From Diplonema papillatum (Eukaryota > Euglenozoa > Diplonemea > Diplonemida > Diplonemidae), in contig JAPJBO010000524.1 of the NCBI GenBank assembly GCA_030068145.1, positions 62,001-126,000 on the forward strand: a stretch of DNA of 64,000 bases. The letters are read 5' to 3'. The position numbers were made by a program, and so were the translations under genes. This document shows positions 7,660 through 55,642 of this stretch, piece after piece (position 1 is the first letter of the stretch; each line of letters starts with the position of its first letter). Below the pieces are notes generated by a model. That model searched no databases. It was not told where the DNA came from and worked only from the letters and a program-made list of their open reading frames with translations.

Positions 7660-8246
7660 CGCTTTTAACAACCCCCCTGAGAGGCAGTGTTCTGCCTAGC
7701 CATTAAACTAAGTTTCCCCCCCCCGAAGAAGACTTGATGCTAGCATCAAACATGCATGCGAGGCAGTACTCTGCCTAAACATTAAACTAAGTTTTTCCCC
7801 CTCAGTTGTTGCTCTAACCTTGCTTGAAGTGTTCTCGGAGTCAGTAAACCCCGCTTTTCCAAGCGAGGGGCGAAACGGGAACGAACCGACTTTCTGCGTT
7901 CAGCATTCCCGTCCAGGGGTTGACACATGCGCATCAATGAGCGGACAGAGCACGCGCGGGTCCGACTTGGAGTGGTGTTACCAAGGAGTGGTGCCGAGAC
8001 TAATAATTAAGGATTCATAAATTAGCGGCCGATAAATTATAAACCACGCTTAGTATTGGCCTATAAATCAGAGGCTGGACGGGTCCGACTTGGAGCGGTG
8101 TTACCAAGAGCGGGGTGTCAAGCCTATGTGCACACGGACGGACGAGAAGCAGGCCGACACATTGCAGATAACCCGGGAGTACTTGAGAGGAAACATGGTG
8201 GGAAAGCGCATCAACGCACCTCAGAACTGTCTAAGCATTGACACCT
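7660..8246. repeat. Short tandem repeats in a non-coding spacer
   Basis: A block of about 35 bp (GAGGCAG, then TCTGCCTA, then CATTAAACTAAGTTT) occurs at 7681 and again near 7760. Between the copies is GAAGACTTGATGCTAGC, which also occurs near 52131. A second repeated block, GGGTCCGACTTGGAG followed by GGTGTTACCAAG, lies near 7960 and 8081. No gene is seen. Confidence 0.6.
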
Positions 8247-8463
8247 TCAAATAGCTGAAGACGTACCCGCGTGGTAGTGGAGCTGCTGCTGCTCGCACTG
8301 GTACGCGGCCGCGTTCGCCTTGTTCTTCACCGTGAGGGTCTCGACCTTTTTGTGGGCCTCCACCAGCTGCTGCCCGCGGTGGGCCAGCTGCCTCTCGAGC
8401 AACGCGCACCCGGCGCACGGGCTGTGTGCCGCGGCGGGCCCCGGCTGCTCCGAATTCCCAGCG
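8247..8463 (-). pseudogene. Coiled-coil gene fragment or single exon, minus strand
   Basis: Read on the minus strand, a frame open from about 8463 to a TGA at 8247-8249 encodes about 70 residues with a CAGC motif followed by a heptad-like, Glu/Gln-rich helix (LLERQLAHRGQQLVEAHKK). It has G/C-ending codons typical of genes here but no start codon. The 3' end runs into GGTACGTC, which could be a splice donor. It is either an exon of an unseen gene or a gene relic. The plus-strand frames over it look unnatural. Confidence 0.4.
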
Positions 8464-9350
8464 ACAGACTAGCTACAGGCTCGTGTACAGAAGAGCCCTC
8501 ATGCCTGATGGAGCCAGAGCGGCGTGCCTTGCCAGGGGTGTGCAGAAAAACACTGCCACGCACATCCTAACCGCCACGGACCACCTCCATCGAAGTTTCT
8601 ACGACACAAAACATCAACCCGAGTGCGGAAGAACCGACCCTCCAGCAGGTACTAGCTGACTTTGCCACATGTGACCGGGGTGTAATGCGGAGTCTGCGGA
8701 CTTTTTTCTGGGCATCCAAGGGCCCAAAAGGGGGGTTGAATGGTCCACGCGACAGGTACCTCTCGCGCAAAAAGCAAAACAGAGTAAACACGGGGGTGTT
8801 GCAGCTGAAATGAAAGCGTTGCGGCAGGTCACCGCTCGGTTGAGCGCCGGCTCGGCACTCGGGAAAGCTATGCGGCCGTACTCCGTTCCGTGGCCCAACG
8901 TATGCTCCTTGTGATCTCGCGCACGTGGGCGCACTAGTTGACACACGTTAAGATCCAAAGCAAGTGGCTCATTCTCAATACTATCATGCAACGTGATACG
9001 TCTGCTGGCCTTTAAGTAAGCGCGGGGAGGCGAACCTCTTTCTGGATAAGTCTCGGTGTCCGTCTATATGAACTTCGTCTCCTTGCGCAGGCAAACCATC
9101 GCAGATGTGTCAGTTCCATCCGTGACCATTCGGACCAAAATACGGAGGAGTCAACGGGGCTACTGCCTTCGACTCAAAGCTTTGCAAGCTGTGGTTACCC
9201 GTCACGTTCCTGGGACCCGGAGCGGTCTTTTTTTGGTTTCTATTTCTTTTTTCTCCCTAAAAACAAAGGCTACTCATCGGTGTCCGACGGGTGCTCGGGC
9301 GGGGTATCCCGAGCAACAGGGGGAGCGATCCACCTGGCCTTAGTCGTTAA
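8464..9350. other. No gene recognised; probable 5' flank of the retroelement
   Basis: No convincing coding frame is seen. A pyrimidine-rich stretch at about 9228-9260 precedes the retroelement frame and could serve as a splice acceptor region (inference). In the retroelement frame the last stop before the ORF is TAA 9348-9350. Confidence 0.4.
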
Positions 9351-12300
9351 AACAATCGACCTGCTGCTTCTAAATCCACGAAGGGGGGCCCTCCCCGAAA
9401 CGGGCATTCCAAAGGGTGTCCTCCCTCTAAAGGACAGCAAAACGTTCGCTCTCCGGCAAAAGGGCGAAAGACACCAATCAACAAGGAAGGCTCAAAAGGA
9501 AAAGGCAAAAGCAAGGGACAAACGTCAGGGAAAGGTTGGAAAGGTAATAAACAAAGTCACGATCGCAGTCACACTCCTCCTCCCCCGAAAAGCTCTGTTC
9601 AGGACTTGACTGGTCTTGTCGTGAGCCTTCTTGTTAGGGAGAACCTGCACCGCGACTTCCGTGTCGCAGCTGCACACCTGGGAAAAGACCGTACACTGAA
9701 CGTGTTTGGTCATTTCTTAAGGAAGGCGTCAACGGGGGAGCTTCAAGGTTATTTGGAGCAAACCCTCCTCGGTAGGCTCAAACCATTGAGAGTTTGCATC
9801 CACCAAACCAATGGCCCCCCGAAAGCTGCAGACAAAAAGAGCAAAGCTCCCCTGCCGAAGCCGACGAAGACGAGATTGCACTCGTTTAAGCGGCCAGAGG
9901 TGAGGAAGAATCCGTGGATGACCTCCTTCAACTGCTACGAGGTCCTGCGGAACAAAAAGGCCTTCCACAAAGAAGAATCTCCGCATTTCACCGACGGCAA
10001 GCTAGACAGTGCCGCCTATGCTGAGGCATGTGCTAACGCATTGGCTACGGCTGGAAAACGCTACCGTCACAAGATTCCGCAAGCTTCTTCTAGCATCCGA
10101 CAACCCGGTGTCGTTTATGCTCTCGTTAAGGAAAACGGCGAAATCGTTTATGTTGGCCAAACAAGTGGCACGGCACGGGATCGAGCCTCAGCGCACTTCT
10201 CAGGCGCCAAGCACAAGACCAAAACTGGAAAGCCGACAACGAAAGTTGAACAATTCCTCTTACAGAGAGGATCACCGCTCCCTGTAATTGTGTTGGAAAA
10301 GATTGACTTCGAAGCTACCCGCGACATGGACCCCAAGCGGAAGCGTTTCCTATTCTTTCGCCAAGCTCTACCGAGGGAATATCATTATATTAACACGCTC
10401 CAACCTCTGCTCAACCAAAAAGGCTTTTACTCGGCGGCAGTGCCCAAACGCAAAAGAAAGAAAAAGAAGCGTCCTCCCCCAAAATCGAGGAAAAAGGAAC
10501 GGCCTCGCAAAACCGAGGAACCGCAAACGATTGTCCTCGAGGACAACGTTCCCCACCTCGAAGAGAGCGGCCGTTATGCGGGGATCAAAAGGCAATTAAA
10601 TTACCTTTTGAGACTCGACGAGACACGGCTGGCGAACTACGACCTCGAGAACTGGCAACTCCGTCGAGTTGTCAAAGTCCTCGAGTTCATGCGTAAGTAC
10701 CTTGTCGGGGAGTTCTTCACCCCAAAAGTCGAGATTCTTGAACGGAAACTGATCTCGCGACTTACGCCGTTTGCCCTCTCGAAGATGCAAAAGAAAAAGG
10801 ACACCGCCGTCAAGTGGTTCAAGCTTAGGTTTGACCACAAGACCCTCGACGCGGTTCAGATCGCCTCGCTTCTTCGCTCAGAAGAGACCCGCGCTCTGTG
10901 TCCGGATCCAGAGCTGCTCGACCGAACTCGGATCTGCAACAAGTTGGGACCTCCAATTTCGGCGTTCCTCCTCAACGCTACGAAGGAGAGTCTCAACACC
11001 CCCGGTCCACCAACTCAAGCTGACCTTGACAGCTGCCCCTGCAAGAGTTTCCTAAACTCCGAGGCGGACGCGGTTTTCGATGGTCACGTAATGTGTACTG
11101 CACAGGATCTGAAACTTGAGCCTGAACTGCAACACCTTTTCACTATGGGACTGAAGTTCCGTCTCTCCCACCACGTCGACGAGGTTTTCCATAACCTAGA
11201 AGAAGATGTGAAAGAATACGTCATGACGACGTTCAAGAAAGCCACAGAAGAGGAACAAAGTAGGTTCAGCGCGCACCTAACCACCGAGATCAAACAAAGG
11301 TTCGTTTCAAACCCGCACTTGTCTCCTGACTCTCTCTCTGGGCCGACAAAGCAAGCTCTCTCCAAGTTGCACGAACACTTTGTCGTTACAAAGGTAGACA
11401 AAAGCAGGCACGACGCGGGGTTTGTTTGCAAACGGCTTTACCATAAGCTTCTCAACGAGCACCTCACAAACGCCTGTTACAGAAAGGTCGATGACCGACC
11501 GAATGCCCTGCGACCGTTACATGAAGCCAATAGCTCATTCGGCTTTCCTGCAGTCGATAAGCTACCTTACGTCTATGGTCTGCCAAAGCTGCACAAACAG
11601 CAAAAAGGGATGCGGTGGATCGCAGGGGTGTCGTCACGAGAGCCGCCTCCCGTTGAGGGAACTTCTTCTCTTTCAGAAGAGGAAGAAAGGCCAAACGTGG
11701 AGCCCCGCAAAAAAGAAGGCAAGCCCCGCGCAGTCACCACAGAAGCGAACAAAACGCTTTCCCTGATCCTCAAACAAATCATGCGGTTGCTTAAAGAAAA
11801 AGACCTGATTCTGCGCAAAAAATACGGCATCTCGCGGTATTGGATTGTCGAAAGCGCTGACGAAGTCGCCGTTGACATCAAACAGCGTTATAGACAACTC
11901 AAGCACAAAAAACCGCGAACCTTCGATTTTACGACCATGTTCAACCTACTCCCCCAAGGGGCGCTAAAAGAAGGTGTACTAAAGGCAATCAAAGAGGCCC
12001 TCCTTTTTGGTAACTGCTCTGGAATTACTCTTAATCTACCAGGGAACAAAAACAAGAGTTTCTCACTCGACGAAATCGCGTCCCTCATAGACCTTTGCGT
12101 GGACAACTGCTTCATCGAACAAGGTGGTTTGCTCCTCCAGCAAGTTTGTGGACTGCCTCTGGGGGCTAACGCCTCCCCCGACCTGGCCAACCTATTCTGT
12201 TATAGTGTTGAAGCCGGGTTCGTGGATGAGTTGATGAAAGAGGACCCGGCAAAGGCTCGCCAATATGCCGACACGAAGAGGTACATCGATGACTTCCTAA

Positions 12301-13724
12301 CCTTCGATGTACCTCCACCACCTCAGGAGTTGTACCACATGCAGTACAAAGAAACAACACTGAAAGAAGGTGACGTCGAGTATATCGGAATACGCATCAG
12401 ACTCGAACCTGACTCGAACACGCACCATTTCTTTGTACGCTTGTCGGTGAACGAAAAGTCGCGCAACTGGCACTTCAAGCCGGTCCGTTTCATCCACAGC
12501 TGGTCTACCATCCCCCACCACCAGGGGTCAGCAATCCTAAAGAACCTCTTAGTCCGTTGCCTTACCCTAACAAACAATTGGCCAGACGCTCTACGAGAGA
12601 TCCAGCTCTCAATTTTTCTTCTCCTTAACAGAGGCCACTTGAAGCACAAACTGAAGAAGGTCTTCTTCCAAGGGGTACAGGAGCGTCTCCCTAACCTCGA
12701 ACCTTCCCAACGTCACTTGAGAAAGTGGTTTCACTCGTGTGTGGCAGCATACGAAGCAGGTCTCCCCCTCATAGAAGAGGAACCCATCGTGGGGCGCAAA
12801 AGAAAGCAAAAGCTCGGAAAGTTTGTTGACGAACTAACGCACACCACGAAGTCGGCCTTCTTCCCACTCGCAGAAAACGAGGAGGTAGGCAAGCCTCAAT
12901 GGGTACGGCCGCTGGCCAGTAACGGCATGATCGCACGCGAAGCGAGACTGAACACACGTCTTCGCAGCATTGGCCTTCAGCCACGGTCAGTACCCGGCGA
13001 CGGTAACTGCCTCTTCCACAGTCTTGCTTATGGCAAGCAGGAAGACGCGCAACATCTCCGCCAGGAGATAGCGGACTATTGGGAAAGCAACCAATCCTAC
13101 CTTCGACCGTTCTGCGTAGACTGGTCTACAACGAGCTACATCGAAGGTTTACGGAACGGTGCGTGGGGAGACCACTTCGCCCTTGAAGGCTTCTCCCGCC
13201 TGCGAGACACCCAACTCTGTATCTTCCAGATCACGGAAGCGGGTGATTACAAGTACAGCGAAGTAGGAAACGGCTCTAACCGCCAATTGCTTGGCCACAT
13301 TGCCCAATGGCATTTCATACCAGTCCAGGGCAACATGAACGATGACACAAAAACTCGGTTTATCACCCGGTCGTCGAACATGGGTCCCGTTCCCAATCCC
13401 ACTGGGGACGGGTCAAGCTTCTTCAACGAAGTACTTGAAGGCCTATCGCAGTCGCAACCCGAGTCGCCACCTCGCAGAAAACGCCCACGCATGCCAACAG
13501 CCAGTCCAACAGCCAGCCAGTCACCAAGCGGGAAACCGGACACGAAGAAGACACGGTCCGACCAGGATGTTGATAAGACATCTCAAGGTAACGCTCAGCC
13601 ACTGGAATGTTCCCACTGTGGGGCAACCGAAAAACTGAGCGGCGGATCTTTCGCCAACGCACGGGGTGTCGAAATCCACGAGCGCACCTGTGCAAAAAAC
13701 CCCGCATGCTACCAAAGTACCTAG
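9351..13724 (+). mobile_element. Penelope-like retroelement ORF: GIY-YIG, CxC, reverse transcriptase, OTU, zinc finger
   Basis: A single frame is open from 9351 to the stop at 13722-13724 (about 1457 codons). The numbering below counts from TTG 9606. A basic Gly/Lys-rich leader comes first. A GIY-YIG endonuclease follows at about 168-250 (VVYALVKENGEIVYVGQTS, then ARDRASAH). A CPC motif sits at 477-479 with GHVMCTAQDL nearby. The reverse transcriptase spans about 650-960: YGLPKLHK, TFDFTTMF with the motif A aspartate, CGLPLGANASPDLANLF and RYIDDFLTF. An OTU cysteine protease lies at about 1120-1240, with GDGNCLFHSL (Asp1132, Cys1135) and AQWHFIPV (His1236). A C2HC finger (CSHC, then VEIHERTC) ends the protein. 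Endonuclease at the N-terminus plus a CxC linker is the known signature of permuted Penelope-like elements (Naiad/Chlamys). No in-frame ATG occurs before 9918, which lies after the leader but before the endonuclease. Target repeats and element ends were not found. Confidence 0.85.
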
Positions 13725-13939
13725 CCCAGTCCTATCTGGAGCGCTGGCCCGGCGAGCTACGAGGGCACAAACCTTTTCCCCCCTTTTTTTTTTTCCCCCG
13801 TCTCCTTTCCATTCTTGCATTTCAGGCCTGCATGCCCCATCAAAAGCAATCGAAAAGGAAATAAACGAGCGTTCTACCACCTCGCGCGGTGTCACGGGAT
13901 GTTTGGCAGCCGCTGCTAAACAAACATAACGTGGGCGGC

Positions 13940-13962
13940 GCCGAAGCTTTACCAGCTTCGGC
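13940..13962. other. Perfect hairpin downstream of the retroelement ORF
   Basis: GCCGAAGCT and AGCTTCGGC form a perfect 9-bp stem around a five-base loop, about 215 bp after the ORF stop and after a long T/C run (13778-13803). It may belong to the element's 3' UTR, but no terminal structure was established. The ACGTGGGCGG just before it also occurs near 39985 and 49857 in a similar local context. Confidence 0.4.
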
Positions 13963-14248
13963 TGACACCATTTGCGCACTTAACCATGGTTAAGAAGACA
14001 ACTGAAAGCAAAGACACAAAGATAGCCCAAAGCATCTGCAGAATAACACGAAAAGCCTCTAGGCAAAAACCCGTTTTCACATTTCTTCTTGGAGCGAAGC
14101 GGCAGGCTGGGCGCCTTCGGCAACAGAAGCAAACGTCACCTTGTTGTGCAATTCAAGCCGGCGCCACGACACGCCATTAGGGAGCTCTCATTCGGACACG
14201 CCATGAATCAAATACAATCCCAAGCGAACTTTAACTAAAATACAACAG

Positions 14249-16306
14249 CACGTCGACACGCCGCAAGACAATGAGCGTGTTCCGTGGGATTTCACGGAAG
14301 CGAGCTACAAAAAGATTCAAGTGATCATGGACCAGTACCCTTCCATCAACCGGCAAAGCGGCATCATGCCGCTGCTCCATCTCGCCCAGTGGCAGAACGG
14401 CGGGTGGATTCCCGTGTCGGCGATGAACAAAATCGCGCAGATCTGCGAGGTACCCTCTGTAAGAGTGTACGAGACGGTCACTTTCTACGCGATGTTCAAC
14501 CGCAGGCCCGTAGGGGACTACCACGTGCAATTCTGCATCACGACGCCTTGCATGATCGTCGGGTCAGACGAGCTGATCCAAGCGGCGTTGAAGCACTTAG
14601 GTCTCACTCGCTTTGGCGAGACAACCAGCGGAGCTGACGGTGCCAAGACATTGACCTTGGGCGAGATGGAGTGCATGGGTGCCTGCGTAAATGCGCCTAT
14701 GCTCGTCGTTTCCGACTACAGGTGCGCAACCACCCCCCGTTCGCAAAGTGTTTTGTTTGTTTTGTTTCAATTACCGTAAACGGAAATAACTTGGACCGGA
14801 CAAAACGGCCCAACTCACCTATTTTAGGATCTGGCGGTCCAACTTTTGCCCGGTCCGACCTTTTTCGGGGGATCCTGTGTACTTCGTGAAATTTTGCGGC
14901 TGGCCACTGAACAGCTCTCGCTCCACGCTGTAGTTTGAAAGTCGCGCATGGGCCCGCCGCCAGGAGTTCCCGAACACTGCGCGGCACTGCGTAACCCGCT
15001 GTGTCCCTCCAGCAACTCGCAACGAGGCACCCTGGCCATGATCCAGCCATTGGTAGCCATGGCCCTGTGGTAGGTAAACACAAACTCTTCCTTGCGTGGA
15101 AGGATGTTTGATCGTGACCGGTTGCGGTTGGTCAGTGCCGAGGGTGGACCAAAATGCGTCCACCGTCTGTTCCATTGCTTTGGTAGAGTGCAAACGCAAA
15201 AATGCAGAGTGCAAATCGAGGTTGGCTGACAGGGAAGGAAAAAGTATGAGCCGCCAATAGTGACAATCTCGGTGCGCTCAAGAAGAAACCCAACGCATCT
15301 CTCGCGCCTGACTACCCATTTGTCAAGGGACTTTTTTTTACCTCATGCCCATCGGCCCAACCATCCCACCATAAGTGAATACGTGCCTGGGCGGAAATAT
15401 GTTGGACCGGACAAAATGGTCCAACTGTTTTGGTCGTCGCGCGGTCCAACTTTTGTCCGGTCCAACATATTTCCGGTCCAACTTCTTTCTGCTTACGGTA
15501 CCATACTTCTTGCGGATTGCCCTGCAATCCATTGCGAAAGACTAACAGCATGCAAACGCAGCGCGATTTGATGGCCGATGGGCAAAATATCACGCCGGGG
15601 CGAGAGTGTTGAGCTTTGAAGCCGACACTTACACTCATTTCCGGGCCCGTTTTGCAAACATGGCCTTAAGGAGTGGTGACCTGCGCTCAGGTTGGAGACT
15701 CAGGAACATTTTCGGAGTAGGGGCTTGCACTGATAAACGAAGTAACGGACGACCAGCATCAACTGACCAAAGGTGATGAAATTGATAAGGCCAAAGTTTC
15801 TTGTTCTTCGCGTGTACAGGGCATAACCCTCTCTGTGGGGGGGTTTGCGCCTGTGCTCGTCAGTACGACGGCCTCCTCAACAACACCCTCAACGTTCTGC
15901 GCAGCCGTGCACATAATTACCTTGAAGGGTGTGTTGAACATAATGGAGAAGACGAATTTGTGCCGATGCCTGCAGAAGGATGGTATTACACCCGAATTGT
16001 GGCAGATGCCATCCACCAAACAGAGAAGGCACGTGCAAGTCTGTATTATGTGCAATCTGTTCCGGAAGTTTTCCGTCAGTACAGATGTACGATTCAAAAG
16101 CTCAATAAACCTGACAGCAACGCGCCGCAGTTCTACTATGACTACTACGAGGACCTGACAGTCGAGACTCTCGTGGAGCTCCTGGACGCTTTGAGGGCAG
16201 GCAAACGTGGTCAGCTTGCCTTGGGCTCGCAAGCCGGCCGGCAACACTCCGCGCCACTCGGTGGCAAGACATGCCTCACGACCACTCCACCGGGGCCTTT
16301 CTGCCG
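14249..16306 (+). CDS. NDUFV2: NADH:ubiquinone oxidoreductase 24 kDa subunit (complex I), two visible exons
   Basis: This is the [2Fe-2S] subunit of the complex I N-module in the mitochondrial inner membrane. Exon A is 14249-14721 and begins HVDTPQDNERVPWDFTE, the usual start of the mature protein, right after a TAACTAAAATACAACAG acceptor. It contains TTPCMIVGS and MECMGACVNAPM; the four cluster cysteines are those of CITTPC and of CMGAC. Exon B is 16118-16306. Joining donor CAG|GTGCGC at 14721/14722 to acceptor CTGACAG|C at 16117/16118 restores the frame and gives DYSNAPQFYYDYYEDLT, as in the family. The end reads PLGGKTCLTTTPPGPFCR and then runs into a GGTGTGT donor, so a short last exon is probably missing. 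The presequence exon upstream was also not found; the retroelement may lie in that intron. Confidence 0.88.
14781..14868. repeat. Foldback (inverted-repeat) element, older copy
   Basis: Two arms of about 25 bp, 14781-14805 and 14844-14868, are imperfect reverse complements with the core TTGGACCGGACAAAA. It is the same family as 15392-15475 but more decayed. Confidence 0.75.
15392..15475. repeat. Foldback (inverted-repeat) element with perfect 25-bp arms
   Basis: Arms 15392-15416 and 15451-15475 are exact reverse complements, with a 34-bp centre that itself carries GGTCCAAC motifs. The size and symmetry fit a small MITE-like element. No target duplication was recognised. Confidence 0.85.
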
Positions 16307-53060: not shown

Positions 53061-53705
53061 ATGTTGCGAACCGTTGTAGCGTGCGCAGTTCTGTCGCTAG
53101 CTGAGTCAGCATGGGTTGCCCCGTGGTTCTGCCACGGGTTGAATTGCCCTGAGTACGTTATGGAGAAGAACATGACATTCGGAAACCAGACTGTGGAGAT
53201 GAGGCAGTACACAGCACAGCAAATGTGGACGTCGACCACCGTTATGAGCACGTCGTTGACTGAGGCAGACAACGTTGGGTTCCAGAGACTGTTCGACTAC
53301 ATCAGTGGTGACAACCAGGGGTCGGTTAGCGTGCCGATGACATGTCCCGTGCGGGAGTACATCCAGCCAGGAGCAGGTCCCAACTGCAACTCGACGTTCA
53401 CCGTGGCGTTCTACGTACCTTACAAGTATCAATCGGCATTGAACGCATCGGCAACAACGCCGCCGAAGCCTGCGAAGAGTGACGTCTCGACCACAGTTGA
53501 CGAGAAACCTCTGCGCGTTGCTGTGTTGGGGTTTCCGGGCATGGCCCCACAGGATGTCGTCATCCAGCGTGTAGCGGAGTTGTACACGTACCTGTCGACA
53601 ACGAACCTGAAGTACGACGAAGAGAACTGGTTCTTCTCTTCGTACGACCCACCCTTCCGCATCGTGAACCGCCACCAGGAGGTCTGGGTTCAGCTCTTCG
53701 ACTGA
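53061..53705 (+). CDS. SOUL haem-binding family protein (copy 1), probably secreted or lumenal
   Basis: ATG 53061 encodes 214 residues. The first 20 (MLRTVVACAVLSLAESAW) are a probable signal peptide. The SOUL/HEBP fold follows: VEMRQYTAQQMWTSTTV, FQRLFDYISGDNQ, VSVPMTCPV, FTVAFYVPYKYQ, then a PP-containing segment, LRVAVLGFPG, and FSSYDPPFRIVNRHQEVWV at the end. The family binds haem or related tetrapyrroles; the precise cargo is unknown. Length matches the family and all conserved blocks are present. A CHGLNC pair near the N-terminus could form a disulphide. The next copy differs by one residue. Confidence 0.9.
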   Translation: MLRTVVACAVLSLAESAWVAPWFCHGLNCPEYVMEKNMTFGNQTVEMRQYTAQQMWTSTTVMSTSLTEADNVGFQRLFDYISGDNQGSVSVPMTCPVREYIQPGAGPNCNSTFTVAFYVPYKYQSALNASATTPPKPAKSDVSTTVDEKPLRVAVLGFPGMAPQDVVIQRVAELYTYLSTTNLKYDEENWFFSSYDPPFRIVNRHQEVWVQLFD

Positions 53706-54997: not shown

Positions 54998-55642
54998 ATG
55001 TTGCGAGCCGTTGTAGCATGCGCAGTTCTGTCGCTAGCTGAGTCAGCATGGGTTGCCCCGTGGTTCTGCCACGGGTTGAATTGCCCTGAGTACGTTATGG
55101 AGAAGAACATGACATTCGGAAACCAGACTGTGGAGATGAGGCAGTACACAGCACAGCAAATGTGGACGTCGACCACCGTTATGAGCACGTCGTTGACTGA
55201 GGCAGACAACGTCGGGTTCCAGAGGCTGTTTGACTACATCAGCGGTGACAACCAGGGGTCGGTTAGCGTGCCGATGACATGTCCCGTGCGGGAGTACATC
55301 CAGCCAGGAGCAGGTCCCAACTGCAACTCGACGTTCACCGTGGCGTTTTACGTACCTTACAAGTATCAATCGGCATTGAACGCATCGGCAACAACGCCGC
55401 CGAAGCCTGCGAAGAGTGACGTCTCGACCACAGTTGACGAGAAACCTCTGCGCGTTGCTGTGTTGGGGTTTCCGGGCATGGCCCCACAGGATGTCGTCAT
55501 CCAGCGTGTAGCGGAGTTGTACACGTACCTGTCGACAACGAACCTGAAGTACGACGAAGAGAACTGGTTCTTCTCTTCGTACGACCCACCCTTCCGCATC
55601 GTGAACCGCCACCAGGAGGTCTGGGTTCAGCTCTTCGACTGA
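54998..55642 (+). CDS. SOUL haem-binding family protein (copy 2)
   Basis: 214 residues. It differs from copy 1 only at position 4 (Ala for Thr), plus about six silent changes (for example GTC for GTT in the codons of NVGF, and TTT for TTC in LFDY). Signal peptide, conserved MTCPV and EVWV motifs and stop context are all retained. Both copies look functional. The leader including CACGTGAAGAAAGAGGG is the same, so expression control is probably shared. Confidence 0.9.
   Translation: MLRAVVACAVLSLAESAWVAPWFCHGLNCPEYVMEKNMTFGNQTVEMRQYTAQQMWTSTTVMSTSLTEADNVGFQRLFDYISGDNQGSVSVPMTCPVREYIQPGAGPNCNSTFTVAFYVPYKYQSALNASATTPPKPAKSDVSTTVDEKPLRVAVLGFPGMAPQDVVIQRVAELYTYLSTTNLKYDEENWFFSSYDPPFRIVNRHQEVWVQLFD

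Follow-up and report, generated by a model that had tools for sequence, protein, structure and literature searches.

Within the window (the whole 64,000-nucleotide stretch of DNA that was analysed), one plus-strand frame is free of stop codons from 9351 to 13721, with a stop codon reaching to 13724 (1457 codons), and encodes without interruption and in this order a GIY-YIG nuclease, a CPC linker, a reverse transcriptase (RT), an OTU domain, and a C2HC finger motif. All of the parts that the earlier note had assigned to one frame were found in 9351–13724 of the plus strand. The features of the locus are as follows:

8900–14248, plus strand: inferred intron 1 of NDUFV2, from exon reconstruction, holding the retroelement ORF in sense orientation
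9918–13724, plus strand: probable ORF (1268 aa) from the only in-frame ATG upstream of the nuclease, within the stop-free run that begins at 9351
10107–10415, plus strand: GIY-YIG endonuclease domain (Pfam PF01541, E 2.2e-8 for the piece; alignment to a relative, L014)
10446–10502, plus strand: Lys/Arg-rich stretch, a possible nuclear localisation signal, with a basic stretch at the same place in L014
11034–11042, plus strand: CPC motif, aligned to CKC of L014
11268–12680, plus strand: RT region (motifs; residues 640–1010 match L014; Pfam RVT_1 E 0.046)
12933–13385, plus strand: putative OTU cysteine-protease domain (Pfam PF02338, E 2.9e-6; PDB OTUD3, 4.7e-7)
13608–13691, plus strand: C2HC finger-like motif CSHC...HERTC, recognised by its motif

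A stop-free run of 1457 codons was seen in none of 2000 first-order simulated sequences, and one of 189 codons in 7 of 2000. Position 9351 marks no more than the beginning of this run. Two ATGs lie between 9200 and 10000, one out of frame (9811) and one in frame (9918). Codon preference, for which the same ORF from residue 241 onward served as the training set and which therefore tests continuity rather than coding as such, was positive for the main frame in all 50-codon intervals from 9700 to 13600 and weak upstream of about 9800. Another plus-strand frame outscored it in the intervals at 9300, 9400, 9800, and 13600 (the last extends beyond the stop), and the higher score of the other frame in the early intervals makes the first 189 codons uncertain. 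Since 9918 is the sole in-frame ATG before the nuclease and the codon preference is weak before about 9800, the protein probably starts there, or else at a non-ATG codon or in an upstream exon. Across the join between the RT and the OTU domain (intervals 12700–13300), the main frame scored 9.4 to 16.7 and the other two plus-strand frames were negative, the preference being continuous through 12700–13400. Chance read-through into the OTU domain, which the earlier note had named as an outcome that would overturn its reading, is made unlikely by the open frame and by this continuity.

The nuclease carries GVVY (10107), YVG (10149), R278 (10182), E343 (10377), and N355 (10413), which we take to be the catalytic residues of the GIY-YIG fold. 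Its Pfam match exceeds the curated cut-off both in the whole protein (E 3.9e-6) and as a piece (E 2.2e-8). The profile search proposed earlier for this protein recovered the GIY-YIG and OTU domains (E 2.2e-8 and 2.9e-6) above the Pfam cut-offs, together with a weak RVT_1 match (E 0.046). Residues 253–355 of the nuclease include no cysteine, and the L014 nuclease carries CKKC there. In both alignments, CPC and the CKC of L014 are two columns off register, with the first Cys of the former opposite the second of the latter.

The RT region holds YGLPKLHK (11574), a hallmark of Penelope-like elements, followed by FDFTTMF (11922), QVCGLPLG (12141), and YIDD (12282). Pfam RVT_1 was matched by the RT piece alone at E 0.046, below the cut-off, and the whole protein did not match it at E up to 1; because this match is weak, the identity of the RT is drawn from its motifs and from L014. 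Motifs A and B' are separated by 66 residues here and by 74 in L014, a long spacer that may correspond to the fingers-domain insertion described for Naiad and Chlamys. Against the PDB, the RT piece gave four matches (E 0.13–2.5), all to unrelated molecules, and the A2 profile gave none. A group II RT match in NCBIfam (E 0.051) was far under the cut-off and was set aside. AlphaFold2 models built without relatives were unusable, with pLDDT values of 37.7 for the OTU domain and 39.2 for the RT.

A degenerate YGLPKxHK pattern located 27 loci in the genome contig collection, of which one, L014, has an ORF joining GIY-YIG and RT. In 25 others the motif stands in short or unrelated frames, and the remaining locus, L013, was not used: at the end of its contig, which is labelled as Bacteroidetes, a PLE-like piece with YGLPKIHK...RPI is joined in frame to an unrelated protein (L013:1–200), and the join may be an artefact of assembly. 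L014 (QIJL01000205.1), the nearest sequence located in this analysis, is labelled as a Flavobacteriales MAG, although the contig is probably a eukaryotic contaminant. Its 1013-aa stop-to-stop ORF comprises an N-terminal GIY-YIG domain (Pfam E 2.4e-6), a CKC motif, and an RT (RVT_1 E 2.2e-4, below the cut-off), with no OTU domain. L014 is unannotated, and its architecture and motifs suggest that it is a Penelope-like element.

The window protein matches L014 collinearly over its residues 254–981 with 21% identity and many gaps (110 bits; E 4e-28 by blastp with composition statistics off and a single subject sequence). Piecewise comparison under default statistics, with 200 shuffles per piece, gave 93.2 bits for the RT piece (residues 640–1010; best shuffle 23.9), 26.6 bits for the GIY-YIG piece (best shuffle 23.1), and 28.5 bits for the CxC piece (best shuffle 24.6); the N-terminal, linker, post-RT, and OTU pieces did not rise above their own 200 shuffles each. 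Judged by these alignments, the kinship is strong in the RT and modest in the GIY-YIG and CxC parts (3–4 bits over shuffles), with all three collinear. Against the window RT, L014 scored 92.8 bits and two group II intron RTs 31.2 and 21.2 bits; the latter are controls that were chosen among the L014 matches in a plasmid collection and not among matches of the window protein (two of three group II records, within eight records matched); the L014 RT scored 43.9 and 37.4 bits to the same two. Searches of the viral contig collection with the whole protein, the RT, the GIY-YIG domain, L014, and the A2 alignment returned no relative except L001, a stand-alone GIY-YIG gene, and the four loci that carry the motif pattern there include no Penelope-like element. 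Phages gave no tblastn match at E 1e-5, and PHROGs gave four weak matches, the best two over the GIY-YIG domain (E 0.018 and 0.36). No second OTU-bearing relative was found among the collections searched.

The OTU domain exceeds its curated Pfam cut-off in the whole protein (E 1.6e-5) and as a piece (E 2.9e-6), the Pfam stretch ending upstream of the His. In the PDB, phmmer matched the piece to OTUD3 (4.7e-7), OTUD5 (2.1e-3, two sequences), and OTU1 (0.051), and also to a chain named RNA-dependent RNA polymerase (E 0.015). The alignment with OTUD3 passes through DGNC (12999; D1217 and C1220 within 12999–13010), and the weak alignment with OTU1 (E 0.051) reaches the His region, where the His of WHF (13308; H1321 at 13311–13313) falls on HYD of OTU1. 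We take this His to be the catalytic one. The domain is a putative protease with Cys and His in place; the Asp that had also been claimed as in place is that of DGNC. About 90 residues separate the RT from the OTU domain. Downstream, CSHC (13608) and HERTC (13677) form the finger motif; with the OTU-finger piece at E up to 10, Pfam listed OTU alone and no finger.

The ORF is followed by an NDUFV2-like exon (Pfam PF01257, E 5.6e-40, with PDB matches). The NDUFV2 frame is open from 14207 and has no ATG before the conserved HVDTPQDN, which calls for an NDUFV2 exon further upstream. One candidate for the first exon, at 8810–8899, would encode a mitochondrial-presequence-like peptide, and the phase of its GT donor agrees with that of an AG acceptor ahead of 14249. 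The search, which considered phase-0 donors only, found four ATG exons with such a donor in 8000–9900 and 13725–14248; every one of them precedes the retroelement ORF, and none follows it. Of the 634 ATGs in the window, 18 passed the presequence criteria. After 15501, a later stretch in one frame resembles by eye the C-terminal part of NDUFV2. Against this model, the best PDB match starts ten residues ahead of the presumed acceptor. The retroelement ORF probably, though not certainly, lies in sense orientation within the first intron of the host NDUFV2 gene.

Elsewhere in the neighbourhood, 14772–15500 may be a MITE-like element, probably inside an NDUFV2 intron: its TIR-like arms of 29 nt are 86% complementary and stand 671 nt apart, and related short repeats lie between them. 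A gene for a SOUL heme-binding protein is tandemly duplicated at 53061–53705 and 54998–55642, with very similar flanks (first copy Pfam E 1.5e-38). All host ORFs with a Pfam match above the cut-off (NDUFV2, two PPR proteins, a NIF phosphatase, and SOUL) are on the plus strand, and 20 longer minus-strand frames that were scanned gave no match at E 0.01; among this subset of frames, the bias may reflect a one-way gene order.

Searches of the 64-kb window with tblastn and blastn recovered the element itself and local repeats near 15 kb, and all other matches were weak and of the kind expected by chance. The exact repeats that link the two flanks of the ORF are six of 9 bases and none longer, and no pseudo-LTRs, target-site duplication, or element ends were identified in these flanks. 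With one copy and none of these marks, mobility can only be presumed. In a rotifer, canonical Penelope families often have just a single copy (PMC3846280, in the portion available), so one copy is no bar to a mobile element.

Penelope-like elements (PLEs) and telomerase share a common ancestry. Naiad and Chlamys are PLEs with an N-terminal endonuclease and an insertion in the fingers domain; the hammerhead ribozyme found in the pseudo-LTR of canonical PLEs with a C-terminal endonuclease is not known from them. Like Naiad and Chlamys, the window protein joins GIY-YIG, CxC, and RT in one ORF, and the distance between its RT motifs A and B' is long, as their fingers-domain insertion would lead one to expect; unlike them, it adds an OTU domain and a C2HC finger. 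The GIY-YIG endonuclease expected of a PLE is present with its motif residues (PF01541, E 2.2e-8), and the order GIY-YIG, CxC, RT that marks the N-terminal-endonuclease type recurs here and in L014, with CPC and CKC two columns off. It departs from the canonical Penelope/Poseidon type, as the GIY-YIG domain is N-terminal to the RT. An Rfam scan of 8000–15500 at E up to 5 found no hammerhead in this interval, and the pattern CTGANGA followed by GAAA within 60 bases was absent from 8900–14300. Craig et al. are said to have described in 2021 a Chlamys endonuclease without the CCHH motif; the window nuclease likewise has no Cys in residues 253–355 and, unlike that of L014, no CKKC, an absence that is Chlamys-like. 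The OTU sequence has the Cys and His of a cysteine protease (PF02338; DGNC with OTUD3 and, weakly, WHF with OTU1). Compared with L014 rather than with named PLE proteins, this architecture supports an N-terminal-endonuclease PLE of the Naiad/Chlamys type with a C-terminal OTU-finger module. The permuted PLE with an OTU domain proposed in the earlier note is borne out as to the N-terminal GIY-YIG, CxC, and RT (collinear with L014) and the OTU domain in the same ORF; the new lineage that it suggested is a conjecture, with one copy and no second OTU-bearing relative in the collections searched, and so are its proposals that the protein counters ubiquitin signalling or processes itself.

OTU domains are known in other mobile elements, reportedly also in the Dualen non-LTR element. 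Some Helitron proteins are described as containing an OTU-like cysteine protease, and Ginger1 transposases as carrying one C-terminally (PMC2836005), and here, as in Ginger1 and Helitrons/Helentrons, it belongs to the main mobility protein; those are, however, DNA transposons, and no RT or GIY-YIG is described in the portions available of these sources (PMC2836005, PMC6431247). Utopia-1_TSP and the nematode NeSL families carry Ulp1-like proteases (PMC4640811, in part), which likewise place a ubiquitin/SUMO-type cysteine protease in a retroelement ORF, in Utopia also with zinc fingers; unlike the window protein, they have a restriction-like endonuclease and a non-LTR RT, and the protease is N-terminal in the nematode families. 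The Athena/Terminon PLEs of rotifers resemble the window element in that a Penelope-like RT is associated with enzymes captured from elsewhere (GDSL esterase, DEDDy exonuclease). They differ in being endonuclease-deficient and in that these accessory enzymes have, according to the excerpts of PMC6431247 and PMC5408684, ORFs of their own. These excerpts mention OTU once, for Helentrons (PMC6431247), and not at all in PMC5408684. An element from shrimp that includes a GIY-YIG piece of Penelope type (PMC3849965, in part) proved irrelevant. No description of a PLE with an OTU domain was found among the matches listed in a literature search whose scope did not extend to most subscription papers or to Craig et al. 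2021; the pairing of OTU with a Penelope-type RT, not met in the literature searched, may have been described before.

We consider it fairly probable that the locus is a copy of an N-terminal-endonuclease PLE whose ORF gained a C-terminal OTU and zinc-finger module, probably within NDUFV2 intron 1, with the OTU domain acting as a deubiquitinase in cis, its most likely role. The GIY-YIG nuclease would cut target DNA and the RT would copy the element RNA at the cut site, as is thought for PLEs generally; the OTU domain would strip ubiquitin in cis, whether from the ribonucleoprotein of the element or, at the insertion site, from chromatin or repair proteins, and removal of ubiquitin would prolong or license integration. 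The GIY-YIG nuclease of a PLE cuts DNA in vitro, an activity that its active-site mutants lack, and the domains of that element were judged to make target-primed copying likely (PMC11167929, in the sections available). More tentatively, and at somewhat below even chances, the element may represent a distinct N-terminal-endonuclease PLE lineage in which a telomerase-related RT travels with a deubiquitinase in cis, whose use during insertion would be to protect the integration complex or to change the ubiquitin marks of the target. Speaking against the preferred reading are the single copy in the window, the RVT_1 match below the cut-off, and the absence of OTU from the only relative.

That one copy, the OTU-less L014, and the failure to find a second OTU-bearing relative also fit an OTU-finger module that belonged to a host gene or to the ORF of another element and became joined to the rest through one rearrangement in this particular copy, with no stable mobile lineage. 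We regard this as unlikely, as there is no stop or frame change and the codon preference is continuous across the join, and the key residues are kept in all three enzymes, hinting at selection on the whole. The main rival concerns the role of the domain: a cysteine-protease-type domain with Cys and His in place, some 90 residues from the RT, could be a processing protease, which would release the individual enzymes by cleaving the polyprotein at a site between RT and OTU (or one between GIY-YIG and RT). Most studied OTU domains, however, are deubiquitinases, and L014 has GIY-YIG and RT as one ORF without a protease. In addition, the purified product of a full Penelope-like ORF was used in in-vitro assays, according to the sections available of PMC11167929, and we give processing a still lower probability.

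The long intact ORF, single within the window, might instead be a domesticated host gene in which a former Penelope-like protein serves the host. This seems very improbable to us, given that the ORF probably lies inside an intron of another gene and that the nuclease and RT motifs are all kept; nothing in the analysis supported a host role.

Under the preferred reading of a PLE with a deubiquitinase in cis, the novelty lies in an OTU domain on a Penelope-type RT, as OTU or Ulp1 domains are found repeatedly in other transposons. For Ginger1 and Helitrons, it was earlier proposed that the ubiquitin pathway takes part in transposition, for example through DNA repair (PMC2836005, in part). If the ubiquitin-cleaving domain is real, an accessory enzyme of the sort present in Ginger1 and Helitron transposons would have been captured here independently. 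A ubiquitin-cleaving PLE reverse transcriptase would strengthen the case for the ubiquitin system as a recurrent control point of transposition, and its presence in one polypeptide would allow the link between ubiquitin and transposition to be tested.
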